Positions 24,801 through 47,554 of a stretch of 64,000 nucleotides of DNA are shown one piece after another. Source of the DNA: Tolumonas lignilytica (GTDB lineage Bacteria > Pseudomonadota > Gammaproteobacteria > Enterobacterales > Aeromonadaceae); contig NZ_AZUK01000001.1 in assembly GCF_000527035.1 (NCBI RefSeq), forward strand, positions 2,492,001 through 2,556,000, given 5' to 3'. A program made the position numbers and the translations under genes. Position 1 is the first letter of the stretch; every line of letters starts with the position of its first letter. A model generated the notes under the pieces. The model was given only the letters and a program-made list of their open reading frames with translations. It did no database searches and was not told the DNA's origin.

Positions 24801-25715
<915 letters not shown>

Positions 25716-25784
25716 GGTTTTGCATCGGCGGCTGGCAGGGATGCTGCCAGCCCGGATTGTCCGCCCATTCAAGGAATTACTGCT

Positions 25785-27233: not shown

Positions 27234-27299
27234 TGGCCCCGGTAGTTGATTCCATTACCCCGTTAGTTCACAGATGAGTGGCGCGGGAAGGAGAATGTT

Positions 27300-28868: not shown

Positions 28869-28883
28869 GCGAAGTTGGCATCC

Positions 28884-28948: not shown

Positions 28949-29007
28949 TATCTTAATCGTATTGATCATAAGAAATTCAAGTGGTTGCAAAGGGAAGGAG
29001 TTGTCAT

Positions 29008-29226: not shown

Positions 29227-29247
29227 TTTAAGAGACGGGAGGCTGTG

Positions 29248-29934: not shown

Positions 29935-30038
29935 CGGCTCCGTGAATCAGGTTGCTATCAGGAATCAAAGCTATCGCCCTTGTTGATTTGGCTGGGGGGT
30001 GAAATCTGCAAGGGTGATAGCGTCCTGTATGTCGAGTT

Positions 30039-30054
30039 TGTTGTGAATATGACA
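30039..30054 (+). promoter_or_regulatory. NifA upstream activator site for nifENX
   Basis: TGT-TGTGAATATG-ACA fits TGT-N10-ACA exactly. It is centred about 67 bp before the predicted start, closer than usual but still upstream of the IHF-like and sigma-54 elements. Confidence 0.72.
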
Positions 30055-30070
30055 AACACAAAATCATTTA

Positions 30071-30083
30071 AATCAATATGTTA
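30071..30083 (+). promoter_or_regulatory. IHF site of the nifE promoter
   Basis: AATCAATATGTTA matches the WATCAANNNNTTR consensus at every position. It lies between the NifA site and the sigma-54 promoter. Confidence 0.72.
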
Positions 30084-30087
30084 TGGA

Positions 30088-30103
30088 TGGACTGCTCCTT
30101 GCA
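30088..30103 (+). promoter_or_regulatory. Sigma-54 promoter of nifENX-fdx
   Basis: TGGACT-GCTCC-TTGCA has the GG and GC dinucleotides at the right spacing and a perfect TTGCA -12 half. The predicted start is near 30114, 32 bp before the nifE ATG. Confidence 0.88.
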
Positions 30104-30145
30104 CCTCTCAAAATTGAGAGCTCGCGCACATTTCAGGAGGGAGCG

Positions 30146-31519: not shown

Positions 31520-31535
31520 CGCAGGAGACCCCCCT

Positions 31536-32918: not shown

Positions 32919-33367
32919 ACCATCTGCAACGACACCTGCGGGTCAGTGATTATCACGTTCCGCATTTAAAGGTGGCCTTCGCCAGTTCGGACATGAAAAC
33001 CGTAGACCAACATTTCGGCTCTTGTGAAAGCCTGCTGGTGTACGGCGTTGAGCCGGATGGTTATGAATTGCTGCAAGTCGCGGAGTTTCAGGTGGTGGAA
33101 GGTCATCTGCCTGCCAAAGTCGCTAGCCGCATTGAGGTAATTGAAGGCTGCTTTGCCGTGTATTGCAATGCGGTTGGCGAGGCTGTTTTTCGTCAGTTAA
33201 TGGCGGCGGGGATCCGTGCCATTCGCGTCGAGCATGGCACCAGCATCACTAGCCTGATCCAGTCGTTGCAGGATCAATGGCCACAACGCATTCCCCAAAA
33301 ACAGCGGCAGACCGACTTGGCGGATAGTCTGGCCGATGCGTTGGAAGATGCGGGCTGGGACGAGTAA
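32915..33367 (+). CDS. nifX: NifX, cofactor-carrier protein
   Basis: A 150-residue protein with the NifX/NifY/NifB C-terminal fold: LKVAFASSDMKTVDQHFGSC with the conserved His-Phe-Gly-x-Cys, then YGVEPDGYELLQVAEFQ. NifX carries NifB-co or a precursor to NifEN. The ATG overlaps the end of nifN. The acidic tail (LADSLADALEDAGWDE) is typical. Confidence 0.94.
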   Translation: MNHLQRHLRVSDYHVPHLKVAFASSDMKTVDQHFGSCESLLVYGVEPDGYELLQVAEFQVVEGHLPAKVASRIEVIEGCFAVYCNAVGEAVFRQLMAAGIRAIRVEHGTSITSLIQSLQDQWPQRIPQKQRQTDLADSLADALEDAGWDE

Positions 33368-33409
33368 TTATCGATACAACAGAAAAAACTTAGCTCAGAG
33401 GAGAGAAAT

Positions 33410-33706
33410 ATGAGTGGATTTATTACCGGTATTACTCGTGGCGGTGCTGCCTGGACACCGGAATTCGTAACTGCAGTGGATGCCCATACCTGTATTGGTT
33501 GTGGTCGTTGCTACAAAGTCTGTTCCCGCGATGTGTTCAACCTTGTCGACAAAGCCGATCTGGTGGATGAAGACGAGCTGGATGATGATCAGGATGATGT
33601 GATGATGGTGATGACGGTGGCCAATGCCGATGACTGCATCGGTTGTGGTGCCTGTTCTCGGGTTTGCCCAAAAAACTGTCATTCCCATGCGGCCATGTCA
33701 GCCTGA
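33410..33706 (+). CDS. Nif-associated 2[4Fe-4S] ferredoxin (FdxB/ferredoxin III type)
   Basis: A 98-residue ferredoxin. Two cluster motifs are visible, CIGCGRCYKVC and CIGCGACSRVCPKNC, separated by a long acidic insert (DEDELDDDQDD). The N-terminus SGFITGITRGGAAWTPEFV is characteristic of the ferredoxin III proteins found beside nifENX in many diazotrophs. It likely donates electrons to nitrogenase or to cofactor assembly. GGAGAG precedes the ATG, and a strong terminator follows. Confidence 0.92.
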   Translation: MSGFITGITRGGAAWTPEFVTAVDAHTCIGCGRCYKVCSRDVFNLVDKADLVDEDELDDDQDDVMMVMTVANADDCIGCGACSRVCPKNCHSHAAMSA

Positions 33707-33760
33707 TTCATTTTACTGAGTCCTTTGCAATCTTGGGTGGCAACACCCGACTGCGTTTTC

Positions 33761-33784
33761 GCCCGGGTTCGCCCGGGCTTTTTT
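33761..33784 (+). terminator. Terminator of nifENX-fdx
   Basis: A GC-only 7-bp stem GCCCGGG / CCCGGGC with a TTCG loop is followed by T6. This is a textbook intrinsic terminator. Confidence 0.92.
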
Positions 33785-33787
33785 ATC

Positions 33788-35239
33788 TCAGTGCATGATG
33801 TTGGTCAGGCAGAGGTTGGTTTGCTGCACAAAATGCGTAAAGCTGAAAAAGTCTTCACTGGTCAACGGGCGACCACTGGTGGCGCGATCGGCATAAAACA
33901 GACCGATGCTTTGCTTGTCCAGCACGATCGGCGAGAGGAAAAATCCTTTGGCGCAACTGATGCTCTTGGTGGTTGCCGGGAGCAAGTGCGACCAATGTAA
34001 ATCGGTATGACTCTTGATCCACACGGTTTCATGTGTCTGCAAACAATGGTGAAAGATCGAGCGCAAACCGCCTTCCAGCTCAATGATAAAAATCTCTTTT
34101 AACGGGCTTTGGTCCAGTGCGGCGGCGAAACGGGCCTGCAACTGTGTTTTTTCCCGATTCAGCATCAGGATCGCCACCCGATCCATACCGACACCCTGAT
34201 AAATTCCATGCAGAGATTTCTGCATGATGAGATTGATATCGGCCTTTTCATACGCCAGCGTAGTCAGTTCGCGCAGCGTTTTAAGTTGTATCAGATCATC
34301 CGGTTCATTCGGCTGCTGTACGGTCTTTTCTGCTGTCAGGAAGGGGGCCAGACTGGCATCCAGATAAGGCGAAAGCATCAACGCGCCATAGGTATAGGCC
34401 AGTTTGATAGTTTCCTCACCGCATTGACGAACACGCTGTCGCAAGATTCGGGGCTCGATTTTCATTGTTTTAGCCATGGCGTTCATTTGCTGTTCAATCT
34501 GCGCCGGAGTGGCTTTAGGATCTTGCAACAAGGCACTGAACTGATTGGCTTCCGCGATCGCCTGCAGTTCCGGTGTACGGCGGTCCGGATCTTTTAAGGA
34601 CAGCTGCAGCAGACTGCCCATATTCCAAGAGTTGGCCAGACCGGCACTGATTTTATTAAATGTGGTGCCCAGCATGTCCCGGACGATGTCGTTTTCGTTG
34701 CCCTGCGCCTTACGGAGTTTATCATCCAACTGTTCGGTAATCGGGCCACCCATACTCCAGAAGGTGCTCTCACCGATGTTATGCAGTAACGCCGCGATAT
34801 AGGCCTCTTCACGGGTATCTTCGTCATAATCGGCCAGCATCATTTTTGCCAGCATGGCGGCATGAAATGATTGCGCCATGAGGCGCAACAGCCGTTCATA
34901 CACCATTTGCGAGATGTCGTGACTTTTCAGCAGGCTGTCGACCAGTTTGGCGGTAATACAAATCTGTTTCAGCGCATTAAACCCGAGCAGCACGACTGCC
35001 CGGCTGATGGTGGTGACCGGGGTGTTGCCGCGATTATAGGTCACGCTGTTGGCAACCCGCAGAATGCGGGTGGTAAGCCCATGATCGTGCAGGATCGATT
35101 TACCCAGATCGGCCAGCGACATATTGTCATCTTTGGCCATTTTTTCCAGCATGCGCACGGTCGCGCAAAGCGCAGGCATTTCCTGCACATTGATCCGTTC
35201 GATCCAGGCATCGGTACCACGAGTTGATTGAATCGCCAT
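33788..35239 (-). CDS. HDOD-GAF signalling protein
   Basis: A 483-residue cytoplasmic protein. An HDOD domain covers about residues 15-220, with PALCATVRMLEKMA, TRILRVANSVTYNRG and ISRAVVLLGFNALKQI; HDOD resembles HD domains but has lost most of the catalytic metal ligands. A GAF-like domain lies in the C-terminal third (MDRVAILMLNREKTQLQ, IGLFYADR). Relatives take part in signalling, often with c-di-GMP or chemotaxis genes, without a known activity. It points against the flanking nif units and ends just beyond the terminator of nifENX-fdx. Confidence 0.85.
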   Translation of the reverse strand: MAIQSTRGTDAWIERINVQEMPALCATVRMLEKMAKDDNMSLADLGKSILHDHGLTTRILRVANSVTYNRGNTPVTTISRAVVLLGFNALKQICITAKLVDSLLKSHDISQMVYERLLRLMAQSFHAAMLAKMMLADYDEDTREEAYIAALLHNIGESTFWSMGGPITEQLDDKLRKAQGNENDIVRDMLGTTFNKISAGLANSWNMGSLLQLSLKDPDRRTPELQAIAEANQFSALLQDPKATPAQIEQQMNAMAKTMKIEPRILRQRVRQCGEETIKLAYTYGALMLSPYLDASLAPFLTAEKTVQQPNEPDDLIQLKTLRELTTLAYEKADINLIMQKSLHGIYQGVGMDRVAILMLNREKTQLQARFAAALDQSPLKEIFIIELEGGLRSIFHHCLQTHETVWIKSHTDLHWSHLLPATTKSISCAKGFFLSPIVLDKQSIGLFYADRATSGRPLTSEDFFSFTHFVQQTNLCLTNIMH

Positions 35240-35317
35240 CGTCCTGATTTTCCGTCGCTATTTCCATTTTCCTAAACTAAGCATAGCGAAAATGAGCAAA
35301 CTGTCTGCTGCTTTTCT

Positions 35318-36556
35318 TTACTCTTGTGCGTTAAGCCACTCTAAGATGCCGTGACTGGCCACATAACCGCTGGCAAAACAGCCAGTCAGCAGATAGCCAC
35401 CGGTGGGTGCTTCCCAATCCAGCATTTCACCGGCACAAAACAGTCCGGGAAAACGTTGCAGCATTAAGTGTTCATTTAGCGCGGAAAAACAAACCCCGCC
35501 AGCGGTGCTGATGGCTTCATCCATCGGGGTGGTCTGTGACAGATGTAACGGCAGTTGCTTGATGGCTTGCGCCAGCAGTTTTTCCTGACTGAAGATTTCT
35601 TTGGTAAGACATTCCCGCAGCAAACCGGCCTTTACACCATCAATGCCCACTTTGTTTTTCAACTGGGTCGAGAGTGATTTCGAGCCGCGTGAGCGCAACT
35701 CCTGTTCAATACGTTCAACACTTTTATTGGGCAATAAATCTAAATACAGGGTGGCGCTGCCATTCAGTTCCAACTGTTCGCGCAGTTCGGCGGCAAACAC
35801 ATAAATCAGGCTGCCTTCGATCCCGCGCTCGGTGATGACAAATTCCCCCTGGCGTTGCGTGGTTGCCCCTTGCGCGTCGGTCAGTGTCGCAATGACGGTT
35901 TTGACGGGGGTGCCGGCAAAACGCTGGCGAAAATCGTCAGACCAGGCACAGATAAAGCCACAGTTGGCGGCTTTGAGGGGGGCCACTGCAATGCCTTTTT
36001 CTTCCAATAACGGTACCCAGGCACCGTCAGAACCCAGACGAGACCAACTGCCACCGCCCAGTGCCAGCAACACCGCATCGGCCTGTACGCTGATTTCACC
36101 ATCGGGGGTGGCGAACACCAACTGCTGTGCTTCATTCCAGCCCATCCAGCGATGGCGGACATGGAATCGAACACCCGCTTCACGCAAACGCTGCAGCCAG
36201 GTGCGTAACAGCGGTGCGGCGCGCATATCGGTGGGGAACACCCGGCCGGAACTGCCGACAAAGGTGTCAAAGCCCAGCTGGTGTGCCCATGCGCGGAGTT
36301 GGTCTGCGCCGAAGGTTTGTAACAAAGGGCGCATTTCTGTTTGTCGCTGGCGATAACGGTTAAGAAATGGTTCAAACGGTTCGGAGTGGGTGAGATTCAT
36401 GCCGCCTTTACCGGCTTGCAGGAATTTGCGGCCGACCGAGGGCATGGCATCAAACAGATCGACCTGGATATTATGCTGGCTGAGTTGTTCCGCCGCGATC
36501 AAGCCGGCTGGCCCTCCGCCGATGATCACTACCTGTTTGGTTGCTGTTGTCGCCAC
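35318..36556 (-). CDS. HI0933/YhiN-type FAD-dependent flavoprotein
   Basis: A 412-residue flavoprotein. The N-terminal dinucleotide-binding motif is VVIIGGGPAGLIAAEQL, followed by the family signature GRKFLQAGKGGMNLTHSE and the C-terminal STAGGVCF and GEMLDWEAPTGGY segments. Members are predicted NAD(P)/FAD-dependent oxidoreductases with no agreed substrate. It is 78 bp from the HDOD gene on the same strand. No nitrogen-fixation role is implied by the sequence. Confidence 0.87.
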   Translation of the reverse strand: MATTATKQVVIIGGGPAGLIAAEQLSQHNIQVDLFDAMPSVGRKFLQAGKGGMNLTHSEPFEPFLNRYRQRQTEMRPLLQTFGADQLRAWAHQLGFDTFVGSSGRVFPTDMRAAPLLRTWLQRLREAGVRFHVRHRWMGWNEAQQLVFATPDGEISVQADAVLLALGGGSWSRLGSDGAWVPLLEEKGIAVAPLKAANCGFICAWSDDFRQRFAGTPVKTVIATLTDAQGATTQRQGEFVITERGIEGSLIYVFAAELREQLELNGSATLYLDLLPNKSVERIEQELRSRGSKSLSTQLKNKVGIDGVKAGLLRECLTKEIFSQEKLLAQAIKQLPLHLSQTTPMDEAISTAGGVCFSALNEHLMLQRFPGLFCAGEMLDWEAPTGGYLLTGCFASGYVASHGILEWLNAQE

Positions 36557-36670
36557 CCTGCACCCCGTTGGTCATGCTGCTCAAAGAAAGCCGCGATTGT
36601 AACATTCATTCCATGATGCTGCAGGGCCAGAAGTGCTGGTGAGGAGATGAGAAAGGTAAACGGAGGGCAT

Positions 36671-36693
36671 AAAAAAACCGTCTGGGTAGACGG
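36671..36693 (-). terminator. Terminator after the TRL-like gene
   Basis: The stem CCGTCT / AGACGG with a 4-base loop is followed on the minus strand by T7. Confidence 0.78.
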
Positions 36694-36737
36694 CTAAACA
36701 TGTCTGCTATGCAGTGTCACTATTCTAAATTCTAATT

Positions 36738-37046
36738 TTATTCGCCTTTCACGGTGACGGTGTACGTTCCGATCAAGCCGAGGATGTTATTTGATTTCTG
36801 GTCAACATGGCTGACACGGGAGATGTTGCCGTTTTTCTTGGCGGCATCAATTGAACAATCGCCAATTGCCACCATGGCCAGATAGCTCTTACACGTTGCA
36901 GTACCCGTTTTACTGGCTTCTGCATTTGACGTGGCGGTCACTGGGGCATTGATATCTGTGTAAATGGCACCGATAGGTTGAGAAGTGGCACAACCTGTCA
37001 GGGCGAATGCGGTGGCAAGCAGGCTGCCGATGATCATCTTGTTCAT
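36738..37046 (-). CDS. TRL-like lipoprotein
   Basis: A 102-residue lipoprotein of the TRL-like family. The signal ends at the lipobox LTGC, and the mature part contains PIGAIYTDINAPVTAT, GTATCKSYLAMVAIGDCSIDAAKKNG and ISRVSHVDQKSNNILGLIGTYTVTVKG, the usual family pattern. Two further cysteines could form a disulfide. The function is unknown. It diverges from the iscA-nifUS unit, sharing the 314-bp region between them. Confidence 0.8.
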   Translation of the reverse strand: MNKMIIGSLLATAFALTGCATSQPIGAIYTDINAPVTATSNAEASKTGTATCKSYLAMVAIGDCSIDAAKKNGNISRVSHVDQKSNNILGLIGTYTVTVKGE

Positions 37047-37214
37047 GTTTTATCCCGAAATAATTACAGAAATGAGTTGCCGTAAGGCGGGCGGGAATTT
37101 ATAGCAAGGATTCATTAATAGCCATTGGAAATCGGCCTTCCTGTCAGCTTTGCCAGCCTAACCGTCATTTGTCCTGATGGTTTTTTATCGTGATTTGCAC
37201 GGCTTTCGACATCC

Positions 37215-37230
37215 TGTCTTAACTGCGACA
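37215..37230 (+). promoter_or_regulatory. NifA upstream activator site for iscA-nifUS
   Basis: TGT-CTTAACTGCG-ACA fits TGT-N10-ACA exactly and is centred about 115 bp before the predicted start. A second near match with an 11-base spacer (TGT at 37246, ACA at 37260) follows. Confidence 0.78.
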
Positions 37231-37312
37231 AAAGCTGACAAAGCCTGTCTGCTTGTCAGACAAAACGCCTTTTATTCTGTTTTATCACTTTGAAAAATAA
37301 TGATTTTATATG

Positions 37313-37328
37313 TGGCACCTCATTTGCA
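37313..37328 (+). promoter_or_regulatory. Sigma-54 promoter of iscA-nifUS
   Basis: TGGCAC-CTCAT-TTGCA is a perfect match to the TGGCAC-N5-TTGCA consensus. Transcription should start near 37339, 22 bp before the ATG of the iscA-like gene. The AT-rich stretch between it and the NifA site could bind IHF, but only two-mismatch matches were found. Confidence 0.92.
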
Positions 37329-37360
37329 GCTTTGTGATCACGGTCACAGGGAGAAACGTC

Positions 37361-37720
37361 ATGATTCAAATCGAAGAAAACGCAGTGATGCAATTACAAC
37401 GTCTGCAGCAACAGTTGGTGCAGGAGTGCGTCGGTTTGCGTCTGATTGCCAAAGGCGATCCCTGCTCGGGGATCAAGGTCGAAATGGGCTGGACTGCGGC
37501 CCAGCAGCCGGACGATGTGTTGTTCCGTCAGGATGGGTTGGTCTTTCTGGCCGATCGCCGTCAGTGGCCTCTATTAAAAGATTGTCAAATTTCACTGGCA
37601 GAACGTCAGGGGCAACCGGGCTTCAACATTCAGCCGCAACCGGCAGATTGCAAATGCAGTCATGGCAGTTGCAGCCCGGCCCAGTCAAGTCAATGTTCAT
37701 CTGGCACCAGTGTGAATTAA
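37361..37720 (+). CDS. Nif-specific IscA/HesB-like protein
   Basis: A 119-residue A-type iron-sulfur carrier. VGLRLIAKGDPCSGIKVEM is the family core, with Cys35 matching IscA Cys35. Where IscA has CGCG near its end, this protein has Cys97-Lys-Cys99 in CKCSHGSC, followed by further Cys104 and Cys112 in a Ser-rich tail. This tail is unusual. Its place, directly behind a perfect sigma-54 promoter and before nifU, parallels IscA-nif of Azotobacter, which supplies clusters for nitrogenase maturation. The ATG at 37361 is used; the open frame from 37310 starts inside the promoter. Confidence 0.85.
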   Translation: MIQIEENAVMQLQRLQQQLVQECVGLRLIAKGDPCSGIKVEMGWTAAQQPDDVLFRQDGLVFLADRRQWPLLKDCQISLAERQGQPGFNIQPQPADCKCSHGSCSPAQSSQCSSGTSVN

Positions 37721-37744
37721 AAATACGCGCAAAGGAGACGAGTC

Positions 37745-38638
37745 ATGTGGAACTATTCAGAAAAAGTTAAGGATCACTTCTTCAATCCACGCAATGCCAA
37801 GGTCATTGCCGATGCGAACGCGGTGGGTGATGTCGGCTCGATCAGTTGCGGTGATGCACTGCGGTTGATGCTGCAGGTCAATCCGGAAAACGAGATTATC
37901 GAAGATGCCGGTTTCCAAACTTTCGGTTGTGGCAGCGCGATTGCTTCTTCTTCTGCCCTGACGGAAATGGTGATTGGCAAGACACTGGATGATGCGCTGA
38001 AGATCAGCAACATGGATATTGCGGATTACCTCGATGGTCTGCCACCGGAAAAAATGCACTGCTCAGTGATGGGACAGGAAGCCTTACAGGCGGCGATTGC
38101 CAACTTCCGCGGTGAGGAATGGCATGACGATCATGAAGAAGGCGCGTTGATCTGTAAATGCTTTGCGGTCGATGAAGTCAAAATCATCAAGGCCGTCAAA
38201 GAAAACGGTCTGACGTCGATTGCCGATGTCATCAACTACACCAAAGCGGGTGGCGGTTGCGGTGCCTGTCATGAAAAGATCGAACAGGCCTTACAGAAAG
38301 TGCTGGCTACTCAACCATGCAATGAAGCGCGTATCGCCACCACCAGTCTGGAGCGCAGCAAGGTAGCTCCGCATGTCGATCTGGCGAAGAAAGATGAAAA
38401 CTGGCGCACCGTGGCTGCGGTGCTGGAAGAGATGCGTCCGCGCTTGCAGGCCGATGGTGGCGATGTCACGCTGATCAGCGTGACCGAATCGAAGGTGGAA
38501 GTTGCCCTTTCCGGCAGTTGCCTGGGCTGCATGATGACCGATATGACCTTGTCTTGGATCCAGCAGACCCTGATGGAAAAAATGGGCCGCTACATGCAGG
38601 TCGTTAGTGTTACTCAGGCTGAGACCACACTGGTTTAA
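37745..38638 (+). CDS. nifU: Iron-sulfur cluster scaffold NifU
   Basis: A 297-residue three-domain scaffold on which clusters for nitrogenase are built. The IscU-like domain has Cys35, Cys62 and Cys106. The central ferredoxin-like domain holds a permanent 2Fe-2S cluster with Cys137, Cys139, Cys172 and Cys175 (ICKCF ... GGGCGACH). The C-terminal Nfu domain has Cys259 and Cys262 (GSCLGCMM). All nine ligands are intact and most keep Azotobacter numbering. It is 24 bp after the iscA-like gene and 11 bp before nifS. Confidence 0.97.
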
Positions 38639-38649
38639 GGAGACGGAAC

Positions 38650-39855
38650 ATGAAAGCGATCTATCTGGATAACAACGCCACCACCCGTCTTGATCCGATG
38701 GTGCTGGAAGCCATGATGCCGTTTATGACCGAGCATTACGGTAACCCGTCTTCGATTCATGGTTTCGGCGAACCCGTGCGCAAAGGCATTGAACGGGCCC
38801 GCGAACAAGTGGCGGCCCTGTTGGGGGCGGCGCACGACAGCGAAATTATTTTTACCTCTTGCGCGACTGAGGCGAACAGCACGGCGATTCTTTCTGCCGT
38901 GGAGGCCTTGCCCGAGCGCACGGAGATCATCACGACCGTGGTAGAACATCCGGCCATTCTGGAGGTGTGTGAACACCTGGAGCGCCGTGGTTACACCATC
39001 CACCGTTTGCCCGTCGATGGTCAGGGTCGTCTGGATTTAGACCATTACCAGTCGCTGCTCAGTGACAAGGTGGCGCTAGTCACGGTGATGTGGGCCAACA
39101 ACGAAACCGGCACCGTATTTCCGGTGCAGACAATGGCGACCATGGCTAAGGAAAAAGGCATTCTGTTTCACACCGACGGGGTGCAGGCGGTCGGCAAATT
39201 CCCGATCCATCTGGCGAGCAGCGACATTGATCTGCTCTCTTTCTCCGGTCACAAGTTGCATGCCCCGAAAGGTGTCGGTGCCCTGTATGTCAAACGCGGT
39301 ACGCGATTCCGCCCACTGCTGCGCGGTGGTCATCAGGAACGCGGGCGCCGTGCCGGTACCGAAAATGCTGCCGGTATTGTCGGCCTCGGTATGGCCTGTG
39401 AGCTGGCTGAAGTGCATATGCCGATGATGTCGCATTTGGCAGAACTGCGGGATGAATTGCAGGCTGGCTTACTGGAAAAAGTTCCTTGTTCCATTGTGAC
39501 CGGCGATGTGGAAAACCGCACGCCGAACACGCTGAACATCGCCTTTGAATATATCGAAGGGGAGGCGATCCTGCTGATGCTGAATCAACTCGGGATCGCG
39601 GCATCGAGCGGCAGTGCCTGTACCTCCGGCTCGCTGGAACCGTCACATGTGATGCGGGCGATGAACATTCCCTACACCGCGGCGCATGGCAGCGTGCGTT
39701 TCTCGCTGTCGCGTTATACCCGCCAGAAAGAGATCGATTATGTGCTGGAAAAACTGCCTCCGGTGATTGAACGCCTGCGTTCGCTGTCACCTTACTGGAT
39801 GCAGAACAAACCCGATCTGGAAAAACTGGGTGAGTTTTCACCGGCGTATGGTTAA
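38650..39855 (+). CDS. nifS: Cysteine desulfurase NifS
   Basis: A 401-residue PLP enzyme that takes sulfur from cysteine and passes it to NifU. The PLP lysine is Lys202 in SFSGHKLHAPKG, and the persulfide-forming Cys324 lies in SSGSACTSGSLEPSHVM. Both agree with Azotobacter NifS to within one position. Length and the GGGHQE-type loop (RGGHQERGRRAGTEN) fit NifS rather than the housekeeping IscS. It is the last gene of the third nif unit. Confidence 0.97.
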   Translation: MKAIYLDNNATTRLDPMVLEAMMPFMTEHYGNPSSIHGFGEPVRKGIERAREQVAALLGAAHDSEIIFTSCATEANSTAILSAVEALPERTEIITTVVEHPAILEVCEHLERRGYTIHRLPVDGQGRLDLDHYQSLLSDKVALVTVMWANNETGTVFPVQTMATMAKEKGILFHTDGVQAVGKFPIHLASSDIDLLSFSGHKLHAPKGVGALYVKRGTRFRPLLRGGHQERGRRAGTENAAGIVGLGMACELAEVHMPMMSHLAELRDELQAGLLEKVPCSIVTGDVENRTPNTLNIAFEYIEGEAILLMLNQLGIAASSGSACTSGSLEPSHVMRAMNIPYTAAHGSVRFSLSRYTRQKEIDYVLEKLPPVIERLRSLSPYWMQNKPDLEKLGEFSPAYG

Positions 39856-39885
39856 GCCTGAGTGCTGTGATTGCGTTGTTTCAAT

Positions 39886-39915
39886 AAAGCCTGCGCGATA
39901 TGTGCAGGCTTTTCG
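39886..39915 (+). terminator. Terminator of iscA-nifUS
   Basis: A 9-bp stem AAAGCCTGC / GCAGGCTTT with a 9-base loop, followed by a broken T run, about 30 bp after the nifS stop. It separates the nif unit from the downstream sensor genes. Confidence 0.75.
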
Positions 39916-39974
39916 TTATTTTACAGCCCGGCAGTTCTGGTTCAGAATGAGAACATCGTCTATCACTCTTCAGG

Positions 39975-40409
39975 ATGAAGTTTATGTTCCGTTCCTTTGC
40001 CAGCACTCTGTTGCTCGGTGCCGGACTGTTGTTGCTGGTGGCTTGCCAGAGCACGGCAGAAAAAGAAAAAAGCAAAACTCCCGTCAAACACACACCGTCT
40101 GAACTCTTCGTCAACGATCTCCGGCAGAACGGCGATAAGCTGCTCTGTAACCAGCCGGCCTATCTGAAATGTTATCTGCAAACGCCCAGTCGTTGCGTCA
40201 AGGATCTCTCCGGCTTTAAAGAGGCTTGTCTGAATGAGGCACTGCAAAAAAACAATGGACAGGTGACAGCAGCCAACTATAAGCAAGTCGGCAACGATTT
40301 TACGCTCTGTATGCTGGTCAAACATGCACTGCTTTATCCGAAGAAAGCCGAAGCTATCGGACAATGTCTGGATAAAAGTCGCTTTGAAAATAAACCACGT
40401 CTGAATTAA
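39975..40409 (+). CDS. Hypothetical lipoprotein downstream of nifS
   Basis: A 144-residue protein with a lipoprotein signal (LLLGAGLLLLVAC, lipobox Cys24) and a short mature domain holding five or more cysteines (LLCNQPAYLKCYL, SRCVKDL, EACLNEAL, FTLCMLV, GQCLDKS). Regular Cys spacing in helices suggests disulfides in a helical periplasmic domain. I do not recognise the family. It lies between nifS and the heme-PAS kinase gene on the same strand. Confidence 0.72.
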   Translation: MKFMFRSFASTLLLGAGLLLLVACQSTAEKEKSKTPVKHTPSELFVNDLRQNGDKLLCNQPAYLKCYLQTPSRCVKDLSGFKEACLNEALQKNNGQVTAANYKQVGNDFTLCMLVKHALLYPKKAEAIGQCLDKSRFENKPRLN

Positions 40410-40520
40410 TTCTTCCTGACTCTTTTCCGACAAGACCCAGCCTGTGGGTCATTGGGACTCAGTGGCATCTTTGCGTTCGGCCATCTATGCTGAAATTATT
40501 TGCGGGAAGGAGATGCCGTC

Positions 40521-43091
40521 TTGAAATCAACGACCACGGGAACTGTTGCAGCAGTCGGGACGATCACCATTGATGAAAAGGGATGTATTACGGCATTTGA
40601 TGAGGTCGCGGTGCGTCTGTTCGGGTATGAATCTGCGGAGGTGGTCGGGAAAAACGTGTCGGTGCTGATGCCGGAACCTTACCACTCCCAGCATGATGAT
40701 TATCTGGCCCGTTATCATCAAACGGCCAACCCGCATATTATCGGCAAAGGTCGTGAAGTTACGGGACAGCGCAAAGACGGTTCGCTGTTCCCGGTCTGGC
40801 TGGCGGTCAATAAGGTCACGTTCGGTGATCAGCATCTGTTTGTCGGCTGTATTGTGGATCTGTCCGATCTGAAAGCGACTGAAGCCAGCCTGAGTCGCAG
40901 TACCGAAATGACCCGTGCCATTCTTGATACGGCGGTAAACCCGATCATTACCATTGATGCCAAAGGGTTGATCCGCACGGTCAATCCGGCGACAGAGCGT
41001 CTGTTTGGCTACACTGCCAGTGAAACCATCGGGCAAAACGTGAAGATCTTGATGCCGATGCCTTATCGGGAAGAACATGATCACTATTTGTCCCGCTATC
41101 TGCAGGAAGGCAACCCGCGCGTTATCGGCGTCGGGCGTGAGGTCAGTGCGCAGCGTAAAGACGGCTCCATTGTGCCGATCCACCTGTCGGTCGGTGCGAT
41201 GCAGATCAACGGTGAACCGATGTTCGTGGGGATCATCTCCGATCTGACAGAACAAAAACGCCATGAGGCCGAATTGCAGGACAAAAGGGCCGCCGAGGCG
41301 GGCTCGCGGGCGAAATCGGCTTTTCTGGCACACATGAGCCATGAAATCCGCACGCCGATGAATGCCATCATCGGTTTCACCGAACTGGTCTTGCAGGATA
41401 AAACGCTCTCGCCACAAACCATGCAGCATGTAGATACGATCCACGGTTCAGCGAAGGCCTTGCTGACCATCATCAATGACATTCTGGATGTATCCCGTCT
41501 GGAAGCCGGTAAATACAAGCTTGAACGTATCGCGTTCAATCTGCCCAACATGATCACCGATACGGTTGAACTGATGCACCAGCGGGCGGCAGAAAAAGAT
41601 CTGATGATTGGCATTGAATATGATAGTCGTTTGCCGCTGCGGGTCATGGGCGATCCCACCCGGTTGCGTCAGGTCATGTTGAATTTATTGAGCAATGCGG
41701 TGAAATTCACCAATGAAGGTGCGGTTAGAGTGGTGATCCGGGCGACAGAGCAGGCCGACCTAGTGCTGTTTGAGGTGCTGGATACCGGCATCGGCATGTC
41801 GGAAGCGGAAGTGGCCAAAATTTTTGAACCCTTCACGCAGGCCGATAATTCTATTTCCCGCCGTTTTGGCGGAACCGGTCTGGGTACCACCATTTGCAAG
41901 CAAATCATCGATCTCATGGGTGGGCATATCTGGCTGGAGAGCAAACTGGGCGTGGGCACGTCGGTGTTTTTCACTATCCATCTGCCAGAAGCCGAACCGG
42001 GTGTCACCTGTCTCTATGAAGAAGCCCGCACACTGAACGAGGCTTTTATTCCGCCGCGTTTGTTCAATGTGTTGCTGGTTGAGGATGTGGAGAATAATGC
42101 CTATCTGGCTACTATCCGGCTCAGGCAGGCCGGGCATGTGGTGGAGTGGGCCAGAAATGGGTTTGAAGCCGTCGCGGCGAATCAGAAAGGCGACTATGAC
42201 ATTATTCTGATGGATGTCATGATGCCGGAAATGGATGGGCTGGAAGCCACCCGGCTGATCCGGCAGTCAGAAACCGGCAGCGATTTGCACATGCCGATCA
42301 TTGCACTGACGGCCAGTGTGATGAAAGAGGACGAAGCGAAATACCTCGATGCGGGGATGGATGCCATCGCCGCCAAGCCGATCGAATTCGATCAACTGTT
42401 CTCCCTGATGGAAAAATTGGTACCCCCGGAAAAAGGTCATACGAATAACGCAATCATGTTATCTGTTCCCGGTAATAAAGAGGTGGATCTGACCCCGCTG
42501 GATGCTGTTGCCGACTATACTAAAGCAATCAGGAATTGGGGTGATATTTACGCCTACATCAAAGCATTGACCAATTTCTCCCGGCAACAAACCCTGGATG
42601 CCGACACCATGCAACATCTGCTGCTACAACACCCCGACGATGTCGAACCGGCCAGATCGGTGGCACATGCCCTGAAAGGGCTGGCGGGGAATTTGTCGCT
42701 GAAGCAGGTGGCGGAGCTGGCCATCAAAATTGATATGTATTTAAAAAACAGGCAGCGCGATGCCGCAATAACATTATTACCCTCATTAAAACAGGCTCTG
42801 CATGAGGCGAGTGATGCCATTCAGTCATTGCATGTTCCCGGCGATTGGGAACGGGTGCTGAAAGAGTTTGATCAGGTCGTGGTACAGGATTTGTTCCGGC
42901 AGCTCGCGGTGGCGCTGGATCAACTGAACCCTGATAAAACCGAACCAGTCATGAAGCAGCTTGCCGAATATGTCCGCAGCAGCGATATGGCCGCAATCAA
43001 TAATTATATTGAACGATTTGATTTTCGCGGTGCCAAAGAGGAGCTGAAGAAGTTAGAGCAAGAGCTGTTGTCTAACCGGAGATCGGGATAA
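40521..43091 (+). CDS. Hybrid histidine kinase with tandem FixL-type heme-PAS domains
   Basis: About 856 residues, cytoplasmic, without membrane helices. Two PAS domains at the start each carry the FixL pattern: His58 in HSQHDDYLARY with Arg78 in GKGREV, and His186 in EEHDHYLSRY with Arg206 in GVGREV. In FixL the His ligates heme and the Arg, 20 residues later, senses bound O2. HisKA follows (His274 in MSHEIRTP), then an ATPase domain (N-box LSNAVKFTNEG, DTGIGM, FGGTGLG), a receiver (Asp565 in LMDVMMPE) and an HPt domain (His716 in AHALKGLAG). A TTG at 40521 is the best start, with AAGGAG 8 bp upstream. It is coupled to the HD-GYP gene by a TAATG overlap. Heme binding is inferred. Confidence 0.9.
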   Translation: MKSTTTGTVAAVGTITIDEKGCITAFDEVAVRLFGYESAEVVGKNVSVLMPEPYHSQHDDYLARYHQTANPHIIGKGREVTGQRKDGSLFPVWLAVNKVTFGDQHLFVGCIVDLSDLKATEASLSRSTEMTRAILDTAVNPIITIDAKGLIRTVNPATERLFGYTASETIGQNVKILMPMPYREEHDHYLSRYLQEGNPRVIGVGREVSAQRKDGSIVPIHLSVGAMQINGEPMFVGIISDLTEQKRHEAELQDKRAAEAGSRAKSAFLAHMSHEIRTPMNAIIGFTELVLQDKTLSPQTMQHVDTIHGSAKALLTIINDILDVSRLEAGKYKLERIAFNLPNMITDTVELMHQRAAEKDLMIGIEYDSRLPLRVMGDPTRLRQVMLNLLSNAVKFTNEGAVRVVIRATEQADLVLFEVLDTGIGMSEAEVAKIFEPFTQADNSISRRFGGTGLGTTICKQIIDLMGGHIWLESKLGVGTSVFFTIHLPEAEPGVTCLYEEARTLNEAFIPPRLFNVLLVEDVENNAYLATIRLRQAGHVVEWARNGFEAVAANQKGDYDIILMDVMMPEMDGLEATRLIRQSETGSDLHMPIIALTASVMKEDEAKYLDAGMDAIAAKPIEFDQLFSLMEKLVPPEKGHTNNAIMLSVPGNKEVDLTPLDAVADYTKAIRNWGDIYAYIKALTNFSRQQTLDADTMQHLLLQHPDDVEPARSVAHALKGLAGNLSLKQVAELAIKIDMYLKNRQRDAAITLLPSLKQALHEASDAIQSLHVPGDWERVLKEFDQVVVQDLFRQLAVALDQLNPDKTEPVMKQLAEYVRSSDMAAINNYIERFDFRGAKEELKKLEQELLSNRRSG

Positions 43092-44071
43092 TGGAAAAAA
43101 AAATTCTGTTGGTGGATGATGAACCGAACAATCTGCAGTTGTTACGGCAGATCTTGCGAGACGACTACCAATTGCTGTTCGCACATAACGGGCAGACGGC
43201 ACTGGATGCGGTGACAGCCCATCATCCTGACTTGATTCTGCTGGACGTCATGATGCCGGATCTCGACGGCTATGAGGTGTGTCGTCGTTTGAAGGCCAAC
43301 CCACTGACGAGCGATATTCCGGTCATTTTTATTACCGCGATGGGCGAGGTGGACGACGAAGCAGCCGGGTTTGACGTCGGCGCGGTCGATTATATTCATA
43401 AACCGGTCTCACCGGCGATTGTGAGCCGGCGGGTACAAACACACCTGTCGCTGGTGCATATCAAAGAGCTGGAGGACAGCCAGCGCGAAGCGATCTACAT
43501 GCTGGGGGCGGCCGGTCACTATAACGACAACGATACCGGCTTGCATATCTGGCGTATGGCGGCCTATGCGCGTGCCATCGCGGAAGCGGCTGGTTGGCCG
43601 GAAGACTTGGCCGAACGCATCGAGTTAGCCGCGCCATTGCATGATACCGGCAAGATCGGGATCCCTGACGGCATTCTCAAAGCCCCCCGCAAATTGACCG
43701 CTGAGGAATGGGTGATCATGCGCCAGCATACCACTATCGGTTATGACATCCTGCAGCGCAGCGATACCCCCATCTTTAAAATGGCGGCAGAAATTGCGTT
43801 GCATCACCACGAAAAATGGGATGGCAGCGGTTATCCCAATGGGTTGGTCGGTAATCAAATCCCCGCATCAGCACAGATTGTGGCATTAGCCGATGTGTTT
43901 GATGCGCTGACGATGAAACGTTCTTACAAGGAAGCCTGGAGTGCGGAGGAGGCGGTAGCAGAGATCCGGGCAAACAGCGGCACGCATTTCAATCCGGCAC
44001 TGGTTGAGCTGTTTCTGAACATCCAGCCGCGGATAATCGAGATAAAAGATAAATGGAATCAAGAGGAATAA
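43091..44071 (+). CDS. Response regulator with HD-GYP c-di-GMP phosphodiesterase domain
   Basis: A 326-residue protein. The receiver domain has the acidic pair Asp9-Asp10, phospho-acceptor Asp52 in LLDVMMPD and Lys104 in HKPVS. The HD-GYP domain begins near residue 130 and has the catalytic His184-Asp185 in PLHDTGKIG, a His cluster (ALHHHEKWDG) and the intact GYP at 247-249 with PNGL after it, so it should hydrolyse c-di-GMP. Its ATG overlaps the stop of the hybrid kinase by one base, marking it as the likely phosphorelay output of that kinase. Confidence 0.95.
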   Translation: MEKKILLVDDEPNNLQLLRQILRDDYQLLFAHNGQTALDAVTAHHPDLILLDVMMPDLDGYEVCRRLKANPLTSDIPVIFITAMGEVDDEAAGFDVGAVDYIHKPVSPAIVSRRVQTHLSLVHIKELEDSQREAIYMLGAAGHYNDNDTGLHIWRMAAYARAIAEAAGWPEDLAERIELAAPLHDTGKIGIPDGILKAPRKLTAEEWVIMRQHTTIGYDILQRSDTPIFKMAAEIALHHHEKWDGSGYPNGLVGNQIPASAQIVALADVFDALTMKRSYKEAWSAEEAVAEIRANSGTHFNPALVELFLNIQPRIIEIKDKWNQEE

Positions 44072-44134
44072 TGTAAAGAACGCTGTTCAATTTGTGACTT
44101 AAATCGTTGGTTTCAGCACTTCAAGAAAAAGAAA

Positions 44135-44389
44135 TTAGCGTCCGGGGATAACATTTGGCGGAGCCATTTTGTTGTTTTTTATTTCTCTGGGGAATCCAGT
44201 CTCGGTACGTACCGCTTGAGAGGTCACTGGCGTGATGTCGGTGGCTTGAGCTGCACTAACATCCAGCGTCACTATTCTATTTGCGGTTTGGCTGTTTGTG
44301 GCGTGTCTGTTTTCCTGCTTGGCGTCATCAGCAGAGCAGGCCGCAATCATTAAGGCGCAAATGGTCATTCCTGAAGCTATTTTTTTCAT
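44135..44389 (-). CDS. Small hypothetical lipoprotein
   Basis: An 84-residue protein with a lipoprotein signal ending at the lipobox IAAC and a short, polar, Thr/Ala-rich mature part. I do not recognise a family. A strong purine site (AAGGCGGGGG) precedes the ATG, and the gene starts 18 bp after the end of the secreted protease gene on the same strand, so the two are probably cotranscribed. Confidence 0.62.
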   Translation of the reverse strand: MKKIASGMTICALMIAACSADDAKQENRHATNSQTANRIVTLDVSAAQATDITPVTSQAVRTETGFPREIKNNKMAPPNVIPGR

Positions 44390-44407
44390 TGCCCCCGCCT
44401 TGTTTGA

Positions 44408-45823
44408 TCATTTCGCTTTAGCGCAACGGCGTTTTACAACAGCGGCAAGACCCGCCAGCGCAATCCACTCGATACCAAAACTACCACCGCCGCTTGAACT
44501 CGTCGTGGTTGTAGAGCCTGAACTTGTATTAGTGCCTGTGGTTGCACTAATCAATGTACCATTCACATAGCAATCATAACCGCTGATGCATGATGTTACC
44601 GCTTTCGCATTGGCGTTCATCACGGTACGTAACCAGGTATAGAAGGCCCCCACATCGGTATAAGATGACGCTGTGCTTGTGCCACAATATTGTGTGACAC
44701 CATAACTGGTGATGCCGACTTCTGTACCTGCCGAATTTAGCAGCGGGCCACCACTATCGCCAGAACAGGTATCCTGACCAGTCGCGCCCGACCAAATCTG
44801 TTTGTTAACCGTATCCAGACTGACGAATGGCACCGTGCCTTCCATCAGAACCGTAGACAGATTGCTTGAGGTTGCGTTATTCACATTCAGTGTTGGATCG
44901 GTCACGCCCCAACCATAAATCGTCTGTGTTTCTCCTACTGTAAAGGTTGACGCCGTCGAGGCGGTTTTTGCCGTCAACACAGGGGTGACAGGAACATCAC
45001 GAGTGCCTGAATACAGCGGGTTAGTCAGTCGCAGTAAGGCAATATCATTGCCCTGAGATATATTCGCTTTGTTAAAATTTGGGTTAGCCACATACATATC
45101 AGCATAATCCCGATATTGCTGATTATCACGGATAACCCCAGAGCCGGAGTTGTAAATTTTGCGACCTTGTGAGTCAGTAATATAGGAATCATCATCGACT
45201 TGCACTGAAACAAAGGCTACCGTCAAAGGATTACCGTTACCATCTTCCAGTCCTGACAGACAATGCGCTGCCGTCATCACCCAAGCCTCATTGATCAACG
45301 TACCACCACAAAAGAACTCAAAAAAATGGGCAGTATCGCTTGTCATATACCCTGAGCTATTAGTTGGGCAACTGGTTACACCATTGGTGGTCGTTGGGTT
45401 GTTGCAGGCGCCAACCAGAAGGTTTGACATCCATTTAGGGGCGGGGTTGGTGTAATTATATGTACCAATCCCATTGGCATCATAGGTAATAGAGGGGGAG
45501 CTCAAGCCAGAACCATCGCCTGTAGCTGTGCCACCAATGATCTTGGTATAGACCCCATTAGCGGGTGTTGACGCCTGGCCTGTACGGATCAGATTCGTGG
45601 CTTGACTGGCATTGAGTTCTGTCAATGTCACTGGCTGCAAATTACCGGCAAATGAGCCGTTTTCAGCCTCCAGCAGATACACAGTGTCGTTCATTATTTT
45701 ACCGGTGTTGATTGGCGCGGATAATGACACTGTGTTTGTTGAAGACACCGAAGTCGCATGTACATAAAAAGTTAATCCAGTAAAGATAACGATAATCTTG
45801 GCTATAAAATTTTTACTTTTCAT
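44408..45823 (-). CDS. Secreted trypsin-like serine protease with GlyGly-CTERM tail
   Basis: A 471-residue exported S1 protease. After an N-terminal signal, the catalytic triad is visible as His in VMTAAHCLSG, Asp in GNDIALLRL and Ser in DTCSGDSGGPL. The C-terminus carries the tripartite GlyGly-CTERM signal: a Thr/Ser-rich linker, SSGGGSFG, a hydrophobic helix (IEWIALAGLAAVV) and basic KRRCAK. In Vibrio and relatives such tails are cleaved by rhombosortase and mark type II secretion substrates. The start at 45823 is chosen for its signal; ATGs at 45835 and 45859 are alternatives. Confidence 0.9.
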   Translation of the reverse strand: MKSKNFIAKIIVIFTGLTFYVHATSVSSTNTVSLSAPINTGKIMNDTVYLLEAENGSFAGNLQPVTLTELNASQATNLIRTGQASTPANGVYTKIIGGTATGDGSGLSSPSITYDANGIGTYNYTNPAPKWMSNLLVGACNNPTTTNGVTSCPTNSSGYMTSDTAHFFEFFCGGTLINEAWVMTAAHCLSGLEDGNGNPLTVAFVSVQVDDDSYITDSQGRKIYNSGSGVIRDNQQYRDYADMYVANPNFNKANISQGNDIALLRLTNPLYSGTRDVPVTPVLTAKTASTASTFTVGETQTIYGWGVTDPTLNVNNATSSNLSTVLMEGTVPFVSLDTVNKQIWSGATGQDTCSGDSGGPLLNSAGTEVGITSYGVTQYCGTSTASSYTDVGAFYTWLRTVMNANAKAVTSCISGYDCYVNGTLISATTGTNTSSGSTTTTSSSGGGSFGIEWIALAGLAAVVKRRCAKAK

Positions 45824-46017
45824 GAAGTTATCCATGGTGGTTTTATTTGGTGTCTGCATGTTTTGAGTTACTGATTAGGGTTCATGCTCGGTATTAACTA
45901 TTTGATTGCGACTCAAGCAAGAGTAAGCAATAGTTAAAGTATAACGATTATTATTTATTAGTGTTGGTCGATCCTGTTGCAGAAGTCGTACTTAATACAA
46001 GGAATAAAACTTGGCTA

Positions 46018-46038
46018 TGTATCACATTGTGTATCACA
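46018..46038 (+). repeat. Direct repeat TGTATCACA x2
   Basis: Two identical 9-mers start 12 bp apart. The spacing (just over one helical turn) resembles operator half-sites read on one face of the DNA. Confidence 0.45.
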
Positions 46039-46072
46039 AAACTGAAATACTCAGAAGGTAACTTAATTAATA

Positions 46073-46093
46073 ATCTATATTTATCATATAGAT
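46073..46093. repeat. Inverted repeat ATCTATAT-N5-ATATAGAT
   Basis: A perfect 8-bp inverted repeat with a 5-base spacer, about 80 bp before the phoH start. It may be an operator or a small stem-loop in the leader. Confidence 0.45.
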
Positions 46094-46171
46094 ATTGGCT
46101 TTTGATTATTTGCGTATGTTGTGGCTGACATGAATTTGTCATCTGGCACATCAGGCCAAAGGAGGCTGCCT

Positions 46172-47554
46172 ATGGATAGCGATGAACGTAAACTCTTCAT
46201 CCTTGATACCAACGTGTTATTGCACGAACCCCTCTCCATCTACTCCTTTCAGGAACACGACATCGTCATACCGATGACGGTGCTTGAAGAACTCGACAAT
46301 ATCAAAGACCGCCAGAAAGATGTCAGCCGTGAAGCGCGGGTCGCGATCCGCACGCTGGAAGATTTGTTCCGTGATGCTACCCCCGAAGAAATTACCAGCG
46401 GCATCTGTCTGAAAAATACCGCCGGTGGTGGTTGCAGTGGTCTGATCTCTATCGTGACCGATCACCATTTACCGGGCGGCGAAGAAGTTTTCACCAACAA
46501 AGAAGCGGATAATCGCATCATCAATCTGGCGCTTTACCTGCAAAATGTGCGTAAAGATCGTCAGGTCGTGCTGGTGACGAAAGACATCAACATGCGTCTG
46601 AAAGCCAAAGGCGCCGGGCTGGCAAAAGTCGAAGATTATCGCACTGACCAGTTGATTGATGATGTGCGTTTGCTATCTAAAGGATTTCAGAGGATACCCG
46701 GTTCCTTCTGGGATCAGGTTGGGCAGTGTGAGACGATTTCCCATGGTCGCGATGTATTCCAACGGATTGATGAAAACATCCTGCAAGGGACGCACATTAA
46801 TCAATATCTGATTGATGAAGCAGAAAGCTTCGCCGGGCGAATACAAAAACGCGAGGAAGGTTCGTTATTCATCAAGGATATCGGGTACGAACGCCTGATG
46901 AACCGTCACGCTTGGGGTGTGCATCCGAAGAATATTTATCAGGGAATGGCGTTAGATGCTTTGCTGGATCCGACCCTGGATTTGGTGATCCTGACCGGGC
47001 CGGCGGGCTGTGGTAAAACCTTGCTGGCGGTAGCGGCCGCACTGGAATTGGTGATTGAGCGCGGGATCTATGAACGCATCATCGTGACACGCAATACGCC
47101 GGAAATTGCGGAAAGTATTGGTTTCCTGCCGGGTTCCGAAGAGGAAAAAATGTTGCCTTGGCTGGCTGCGGTCACCGATACGCTGGAGGTGTTGCATAAG
47201 CACGATGAAAGTCGCGAAAGCTCGCTGCAATACATCATGGAGAAGGCCAATATCCAGTTTAAATCGGTGAACTTTATGCGTGGCCGCAGTTTCCAGAATA
47301 CTTTTGTATTGCTGGATGAATGTCAGAACCTGACGGCATCACAGTTGAAAACTATCATCACCCGTTGTGGTGAAGGCACCAAGATTGTCTGTTCCGGTAA
47401 CTTGGCGCAGATTGACTCCAATTATCTGACACCGGTAACGTCCGGTCTGACCTATATCGTCGAGCGGTTTAAAGACTTTGAAGGAAGTGCGAATATCTTC
47501 CTGAATGGTGTTATTCGCAGTCGTTTGGCTTCATTTGCTGAGGAAAATCTGTAG
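46172..47554 (+). CDS. PIN-PhoH ATPase
   Basis: A 460-residue protein with an N-terminal PIN domain (KLFILDTNVLLHEP, ILDTNV carrying the acidic metal ligand; further acidic residues in KEADNRIINLAL) and a C-terminal PhoH ATPase domain. Walker A is TGPAGCGKTLLA and Walker B VLLDECQNLT. Such PhoH2-like proteins are RNA helicase/ribonucleases in mycobacteria; the cellular role here is unproven. The ATG at 46172, with AAAGGAGG upstream, is chosen over 46121. Confidence 0.93.
   Translation: MDSDERKLFILDTNVLLHEPLSIYSFQEHDIVIPMTVLEELDNIKDRQKDVSREARVAIRTLEDLFRDATPEEITSGICLKNTAGGGCSGLISIVTDHHLPGGEEVFTNKEADNRIINLALYLQNVRKDRQVVLVTKDINMRLKAKGAGLAKVEDYRTDQLIDDVRLLSKGFQRIPGSFWDQVGQCETISHGRDVFQRIDENILQGTHINQYLIDEAESFAGRIQKREEGSLFIKDIGYERLMNRHAWGVHPKNIYQGMALDALLDPTLDLVILTGPAGCGKTLLAVAAALELVIERGIYERIIVTRNTPEIAESIGFLPGSEEEKMLPWLAAVTDTLEVLHKHDESRESSLQYIMEKANIQFKSVNFMRGRSFQNTFVLLDECQNLTASQLKTIITRCGEGTKIVCSGNLAQIDSNYLTPVTSGLTYIVERFKDFEGSANIFLNGVIRSRLASFAEENL

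Follow-up and report, generated by a model that had tools for sequence, protein, structure and literature searches.

The window analysed here is a stretch of 64,000 nucleotides of Tolumonas lignilytica (contig NZ_AZUK01000001.1, positions 2,492,001 to 2,556,000; coordinates below count from its first letter). Behind its nitrogen-fixation (nif) genes it carries two plus-strand genes, encoding a hybrid histidine kinase with two FixL-like PAS domains and a response regulator composed of a receiver (REC) and an HD-GYP domain. The kinase frame starts with a TTG at 40521, with GGGAAGGAG ahead of it, and its stop codon, ending at 43091, shares one base with the ATG of the regulator (TAATG). The features of both genes are as follows:

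40521..43091, + strand: hybrid histidine kinase gene, PAS-PAS-HisKA-HATPase-REC-HPt-tail, 856 aa (open frame, residues and Pfam)
40554..40895, + strand: PAS1, FixL-type, with H58/R64/H72/R78 (residues about 12-125; BjFixL heme domain at E 6e-30)
40692..40694, + strand: codon of H58, the predicted heme ligand of PAS1 (alignment to BjFixL)
40752..40754, + strand: codon of R78, equivalent of BjFixL R220 (same alignment)
40908..41282, + strand: PAS2, FixL-type, with H186/R192/R200/R206 (residues about 130-254; BjFixL match)
41076..41078, + strand: codon of H186, the predicted heme ligand of PAS2 (alignment to BjFixL)
41136..41138, + strand: codon of R206, equivalent of BjFixL R220 (same alignment)
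41310..41510, + strand: HisKA dimerisation and phospho-acceptor domain, HEIRTP (Pfam PF00512)
41649..41990, + strand: HATPase_c domain, GTGLGTTICK (PF02518)
42069..42404, + strand: receiver domain of the kinase (PF00072)
42582..42815, + strand: HPt domain, AHALKG (PF01627, 34.6 bits against a cut-off of 24.6)
42816..43088, + strand: C-terminal tail, common to 14 full-length distant orthologues, whose matches run to query residue 835-855
43091..44071, + strand: response regulator gene, REC-HD-GYP, 326 aa (open frame; Pfam Response_reg and HD_5)
43103..43417, + strand: receiver domain of the regulator, phospho-acceptor D52 (Pfam; D52 in 19/19 rows of an alignment)
43553..44002, + strand: HD-GYP domain, HD_5 (Pfam; comparison with PmGH)
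about 43532-43894, + strand: eight PmGH metal-ligand positions, D148, H152, H184, D185, H213, H239, H240 and D268

Pfam recognises PAS in two stretches of the kinase, followed by HisKA (residues 264-330), HATPase_c (377-490), Response_reg (517-628) and Hpt (688-765), all above the curated cut-offs. The PAS1 match begins at residue 12-14, leaving no space for the N-terminal membrane part of a receptor for the diffusible signal factor (DSF). Against the NCBIfam equivalog model for FixL (NF041777), the kinase reaches 320.9 bits, below the cut-off of 850.

Both PAS domains resemble the heme domain of FixL far beyond what chance would give. As a query by itself, PAS1 has BjFixL as its match at E 6e-30 (the heme domain), followed by E. 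coli DosP at about 6e-11, and when PAS1 and PAS2 are taken as one query the crystallised BjFixL heme domain aligns best at residues 131-254 (E 8e-36), DosP again being weaker. Each domain has the His aligned with the BjFixL heme ligand and, 20 residues further on, an Arg (H58/R78 and H186/R206) which we take to be the counterpart of BjFixL R220, a PDB entry title mentioning R220A. The GREV motif, the His and the +20 Arg are retained in both PAS domains in all five rows (four proteins) of a two-PAS alignment, and four complete congeneric kinases likewise have the His with its +20 Arg in both. The AlphaFold model of PAS1-PAS2 (mean predicted local distance difference test score, pLDDT, 79.5; predicted template-modelling score, pTM, 0.47) is closest to FixL and DosP among PDB structures; taken together, the two domains superpose loosely (TM about 0.5, root-mean-square deviation 6-8 Å), while single BjFixL heme domains fit at 0.8-1.1 Å over 104-119 columns. 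Sequence and modelled fold thus suggest that each PAS domain holds a FixL-type heme pocket and would bind heme. An initial annotation, made from the letters of this stretch, had described the tandem PAS domains with their His/Arg pairs spaced by 20 residues, the HisKA, ATPase, receiver and HPt domains behind them, and the one-base overlap with the next gene, all of which the residues, frames, Pfam and BjFixL matches bear out.

The same annotation had read the next gene as a receiver with an intact HD-GYP phosphodiesterase, and this holds at the level of the sequence. The regulator matches PmGH (4mcw) at E 1e-51, with all eight metal-ligand positions, as defined in PMC4159591, occupied (this and the other papers cited here by PMC number are quoted from excerpts). 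In an alignment of 19 rows, five from the same genus and two duplicating other rows, D52, the GYP motif and seven of the eight ligand positions are invariant; the eighth, at the position of PmGH-E185 (D148), is Asp in 18 rows and Glu in one. Residues 148-150 read DTG, the signature of the E/D-T-G HD-GYP proteins, a subfamily predicted to be trinuclear in the excerpt of PMC4159591. PmGH is also the top PDB match of the AlphaFold model of the regulator (pLDDT 74.0). Hydrolysis of cyclic diguanylate (c-di-GMP) by the regulator is therefore likely, as all eight ligand positions are filled and near-invariant across the rows, and the protein belongs to the E/D-T-G subfamily. A FixJ-type DNA-binding output was not found: the adjacent regulator is a REC-HD-GYP protein, and matches of transcription-factor models to it cover the receiver only. 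Membership in the NosR family of NCBIfam (NF053512) was rejected, the score being 169.5 bits against a cut-off of 400, with the best stretch (residues 125-314) in the HD-GYP half.

How far the two genes keep together elsewhere was surveyed in named genomes (best 80 of 332 confirmed stretches), in samples of 369 genomes of the class and 398 of the phylum, and in 43 genomes of the Chitinibacter family. The distant set (genomes are labelled G, loci L) comprises 14 distinct loci from 13 genomes, with kinase matches of 591 bits or more that reach residue 835-855: L011 (Moraxellaceae), L012 (Chitinibacter), L013 and L015 (Magnetococcales), L014 (Marinomonas), L145-L148, L150, L151 and L153-L155. L149 and L152 were left out as copies of L013 and L015, and two of the loci kept, L012 and L153, hardly differ (97% identity). 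At 12 of the 14 loci the kinase adjoins an orthologous REC-HD-GYP gene with 60-73% identity to the regulator of the window (216 bases apart in L155), and the hybrid of histidine kinase, receiver and HPt next to REC-HD-GYP is the layout of RpfC/RpfG. The sensor is far less constant: three FixL motifs per kinase are present in L012, L153 and L154, two in L011, L013, L145, L147 and L150, one in L146, L148 and L151, and none in L014 and L155 (L015 is cut by its contig end). Because 12 of 14 loci have the adjacent REC-HD-GYP gene while the FixL motifs range from zero to three, the predicted output appears largely fixed across the distant family and the sensor variable. Identities of kinase core and regulator rise together over 15 rows (r 0.88, a value that common ancestry inflates; 0 of 5000 permutations were as high). 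In a tree of the regulators the 15 family rows group together against a paralogue (98/99); the deep order is weak, with four very long branches, and this tree was not used for family history.

The layout itself extends further. Among 113 kinase loci checked for an HD-GYP neighbour (duplicates and nine loci of the T. lignilytica genome included), four low-scoring ones that have no FixL motifs (L036, L037, L046 and L049) have an HD-GYP neighbour 38-44% identical, so the pairing of kinase and HD-GYP regulator is wider than the FixL-type family. The T. lignilytica genome holds a second pair of hybrid kinase and REC-HD-GYP regulator (G000:C1:850705-853537; L002, L164), whose regulator is 54% identical and whose kinase has a membrane sensor that presumably is of MHYT type; judged by these predicted domains, sensor exchange is seen in this genome too. 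No FixL motif was seen in nine other kinase loci of the genome (L002-L010, out of 64 further matches, some cut at the edge). A plasmid collection gave 249 records at E 1e-60, all below 60% identity (32-38% in the 15 listed), and hence no close copy on the sampled plasmids.

Taken together, the pair probably is a cognate gas-sensing phosphorelay with c-di-GMP breakdown as its predicted output, one member of a dispersed family, which lies beside nifS by position and is not a dedicated nif regulator; the REC-HD-GYP gene is the likely cognate output of the kinase. We infer the heme, the gas, the sign and the physiology of the pair as follows. H58 and H186 would each bind heme b in a cytoplasmic kinase, with R78 and R206 as the O2-responsive Arg, as in FixL, and binding of a gas, most likely O2, would switch the kinase. 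Phosphate would pass from the HisKA His to the kinase receiver, then to the HPt domain and finally to D52 of the regulator, and the phosphorylated REC-HD-GYP protein would hydrolyse c-di-GMP at a site that probably is tri-metal. In FixL the kinase is active when its heme is free of O2; by the same logic, low O2 would give phosphorylated regulator, an active phosphodiesterase, less c-di-GMP and motile or dispersed cells. This sign of the oxygen response is a guess by analogy.

Several observations weigh against this interpretation. Within the distant set, the kinases of L146 and L147 stand without an HD-GYP neighbour; the same is true of L141 (546 bits), the match that comes next in score, and counting it gives 12 of 15. 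Twelve other distant loci, at 346-524 bits, also have no HD-GYP neighbour, and ten of these carry FixL motifs (flanks are short for some; longer flanks were read for L156-L160); FixL-type hybrid kinases are thus frequently linked to other outputs. In one orthologue (L155) an Asn takes the place of K188, the putative catalytic Lys of the regulator, the AlphaFold models of PAS1-PAS2 and of the regulator are of moderate confidence, and the pair lies by nifS in all five genus genomes that could be judged (the window, G069, G070, G073 and G074), so that some link to nif is possible. The heme pockets also differ from the model: PAS1 has a Lys (K76) at what we take to be BjFixL I218, PAS2 an Arg (R200) at the presumed BjFixL H214, and in the Moraxellaceae orthologue PAS2 has the His and the +20 Arg without an equivalent of R192. 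Because of the two substitutions, affinity may be shifted or one of the domains may be heme-free. That one PAS alone binds heme and the other is a structural or dimerising domain has a modest chance, and has a precedent in BjFixL, whose first PAS is heme-free; the conservation of His, +20 Arg and GREV in both domains, described above for the two-PAS alignment, and of His and +20 Arg in the congeneric kinases, argues for two hemes.

The identity of the gas is a related matter. Both PAS domains keep the FixL Arg, which is linked to O2 discrimination, PAS1 is far closer to FixL than to DosP, and neither a FIST nor an H-NOX domain is among the Pfam matches of the kinase. These points make it rather unlikely, though a little less so than the mechanisms still to be considered, that the sensor reads nitric oxide (NO), or carbon monoxide or redox state, in place of O2, as a functional analogue of NosP-NosK-NosR or HnoX-HnoK-HnoB. 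In favour of such a reading, heme NO sensors wired to c-di-GMP regulators are established, and these two NO systems have a similar layout, according to excerpts of PMC12570481 and PMC8846402, and there is a crystal structure of the BjFixL heme domain with NO (1dp8). The alternative that the regulator works chiefly through protein contacts and not by catalysis, a mode of action put forward for degenerate HD-GYP proteins, draws on NosR, the degenerate protein in which a comparable gas system ends (HG-GTP; PMC12570481, excerpt); with every ligand position filled here, this is improbable.

The remaining question is what the neighbourhood of nif means. The initial annotation placed the pair beside the nif genes, correctly: nifH, D, K, E, N, U and S lie at 24831-39855 with scores above their NCBIfam cut-offs (nifX is matched, under its cut-off), and nifS, ending at 39855, is the last gene of the block. 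Two features separate it from the kinase:

39886..39912, + strand: intrinsic terminator between nifS and the pair, 12 pairs counted and then a T-rich tail (terminator scan)
39975..40409, + strand: small gene for a lipoprotein-like product of 144 aa, lying between nifS and the kinase gene (open frame)

A hairpin trails nifS in all seven genomes read, whether or not they have the pair (five by program, two, L116 and L118, by eye), and in the four congeners whose flanking sequence is long enough (G069, G070, G073 and G074) a counterpart of the lipoprotein-like gene stands directly 5' of the kinase. With a sigma-54 consensus that we presume to be the standard one, no candidate scoring 9 or more of 11 was found within 37930-46527, while nifU is preceded by a full-consensus site at 37313 (TGGCACCTCATTTGCA) and a TGT-N10-ACA element at 37215 (37215-37328). 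The first codons of the open reading frame annotated from 37310 overlap this nifU site, and translation of that frame probably begins further downstream. Near the pair, sigma-70-like sites number 5, against 4.7 expected, and terminator-like sites 11, against 4.7, an excess; a weak terminator-like site lies at 40476-40494, between the lipoprotein gene and the kinase. With a terminator after nifS and no sigma-54 candidate near the pair, the pair is predicted to be neither part of a nif unit nor under a NifA-type promoter.

Does the pair follow nif within its own genus? The kinase occurs in seven of 11 genus genomes (E 1e-150 or better), each time with the HD-GYP gene adjoining; in one of the seven, G071 (L096), a fragmented assembly, the kinase is split into two frames that overlap by a few bases, through an assembly error or as a broken gene. 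Two congeners at least 99% complete, G065 and G066, have the nif block and also the conserved gene that comes next (window 46121), with other genes between and no pair. Among genus genomes at least 90% complete, nifD is present in seven of seven and the pair in five; of the less complete ones, G072 (87%) has the pair and no nifD match, and G067 (70%) and G068 (63%, nifD only in part) have nifD and no pair. In a tree built on five nif proteins of seven genomes, which is a nif tree and not a species tree, G065 branches among the strains that have the pair (support 94; 79 at the neighbouring fork), and loss of the pair is therefore the simpler reading of its absence there. NifL, the usual redox and O2 switch of nif, scores above its cut-off in all seven genomes tested, with or without the pair. 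Outside the genus, ten of 12 searchable distant kinase genomes gave no nifD match and two (G579 and G544) have nifD on another contig; of the ten, G598 is 71% and G594 75% complete, and G443, G444, G827 and G831 have no completeness figure (G445 and G446, with coordinates identical to those in G579 and G598, were merged with these two, and the L014 genome lay outside this search). Four genomes with weaker kinase relatives only have nifD in two cases (G482 and G523), and the nif genes of the window were unmatched in the DNA available around all 14 distant loci.

This evidence bears on the idea, put forward by the initial annotation, that the pair belongs to a nitrogen-fixation programme, in which c-di-GMP-driven attachment would find or make low-oxygen sites for nitrogenase. 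The proximity to nifS in five of five judgeable genus genomes (one gene intervening in G073) and the standing of FixL as the classic regulator of fixation speak for it; the congeners with nif and no pair, the distant genomes without nifD (several of them incomplete drafts), the terminator in seven of seven genomes, the lack of a sigma-54 candidate and the presence of NifL irrespective of the pair make it quite improbable. A dedicated nif regulator was rejected on the terminator, the promoter scan, the congeners without the pair and the distant genomes, and the link to nif is unsupported because the terminator, the missing sigma-54 site, G065 and G066 with nif and NifL and no pair, and the distant genomes all point away from it. 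The most plausible account of the place beside nifS is an accident of gene order at the level of the genus. Of the earlier proposal, the gas-sensor kinase leading to c-di-GMP breakdown is thus favoured by the pockets, the HD-GYP site and the kept pairing, while its tie to nitrogen fixation falls: the pair does not track with nif, and the contrary evidence that the annotation itself had named, the pair next to unrelated genes in non-fixing relatives, is what the distant genomes show, ten of the 12 searched giving no nifD match.

The phosphorelay favoured here has partial parallels in several known systems. It shares with FixL (Bradyrhizobium/Sinorhizobium FixLJ) the heme-PAS sequence and fold, the His ligand, the +20 Arg and the HisKA-HATPase behind, and differs in having two heme-type PAS domains, its own receiver and HPt, and a REC-HD-GYP partner in place of FixJ. 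RpfC, of Xanthomonas RpfC/RpfG, is a membrane DSF receptor of histidine kinase, receiver and HPt layout with a REC-HD-GYP partner, as here, whereas this kinase has FixL-type PAS sensors in place of that receptor; RpfG, in the excerpt of PMC4159591, is without two of the eight metal ligands, all present in this regulator. NosP-NosK-NosR (Burkholderia) and H-NOX/HnoK/HnoB/HnoD (Shewanella) similarly lead from a heme gas sensor through a kinase to a c-di-GMP-type regulator; as excerpted (PMC12570481, PMC8846402), they have a separate heme protein (FIST or H-NOX), while here the predicted hemes lie in PAS domains within the kinase, and NosR is degenerate (PMC12570481) where this HD-GYP site is complete. 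Vibrio Aer2 receptors, dual and triple PAS-heme proteins, also place several heme PAS domains in one oxygen receptor, and are chemoreceptors, not kinases; that two heme sensors in one kinase could widen the sensing range, as the initial annotation proposed, is a conjecture. In E. coli DosP and Vibrio fluvialis GCS-HD-GYP a heme gas sensor governs c-di-GMP breakdown, with sensor and phosphodiesterase in one chain and no phosphorelay. In the Burkholderia cepacia complex, FixLJ affects biofilm and motility, and c-di-GMP changes did not explain the biofilm effect (PMC8406202, excerpt), and the excerpt of PMC8396549 mentions FixL and one HD-GYP protein, separately. All parts are known, then, as is a heme-sensor kinase wired to an HD-GYP regulator; what appears new is that predicted tandem FixL-type PAS domains head a phosphorelay kinase whose HD-GYP partner is complete. 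Among the papers listed from open-licence PubMed Central, none was on a FixL-type kinase with an HD-GYP partner, judging by titles and abstract beginnings, which is weak evidence of absence.

Should this reading hold, FixL, known from textbooks for sensing oxygen in nitrogen fixation, would represent just one application of a heme-PAS front end that can be moved between kinase systems, and the same sensor would elsewhere address c-di-GMP, and hence the choice between attachment and swimming. The further idea, that these phosphorelays from O2 to c-di-GMP make up an undescribed, scattered family with a conserved kinase core and REC-HD-GYP partner behind one, two or three FixL-type heme PAS domains, whose number sets the oxygen threshold or the steepness of the c-di-GMP switch, is tentative, with the odds somewhat against it. 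Kinases with zero, one, two or three FixL-type motifs that share a conserved output form a natural series, which would be a ready experiment on the contribution of extra heme sensors.

Some further observations concern the surroundings. The interval after nifS varies across the genus: in G073 one gene that by eye is chemoreceptor-like (L118:17788-19797) lies between nifS and the group of lipoprotein, kinase and HD-GYP genes, and in L115 and L116 unrelated genes occupy the interval. On the minus strand downstream of the pair, 44408-45859 encodes a trypsin-like protease (by eye) with a C-terminal tail that we take to be of GlyGly-CTERM type; there is none at this place in G070 and G074, and a counterpart 71% identical lies beside the pair in G069 (L114). 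Inside the nif block, a minus-strand gene at 33788-35239 encodes a 483-aa protein with no NCBIfam match, not seen at that place in L115 or L116, and with relatives there in L110, L112, L117 and L118. Elsewhere in the genome (G000:C1:3116085-3121003), nifD-like genes score 373.6 and 271.8 bits against the Mo-nitrogenase cut-off of 653.55 and possibly belong to an alternative nitrogenase with its assembly genes; such genes occur in several congeners.

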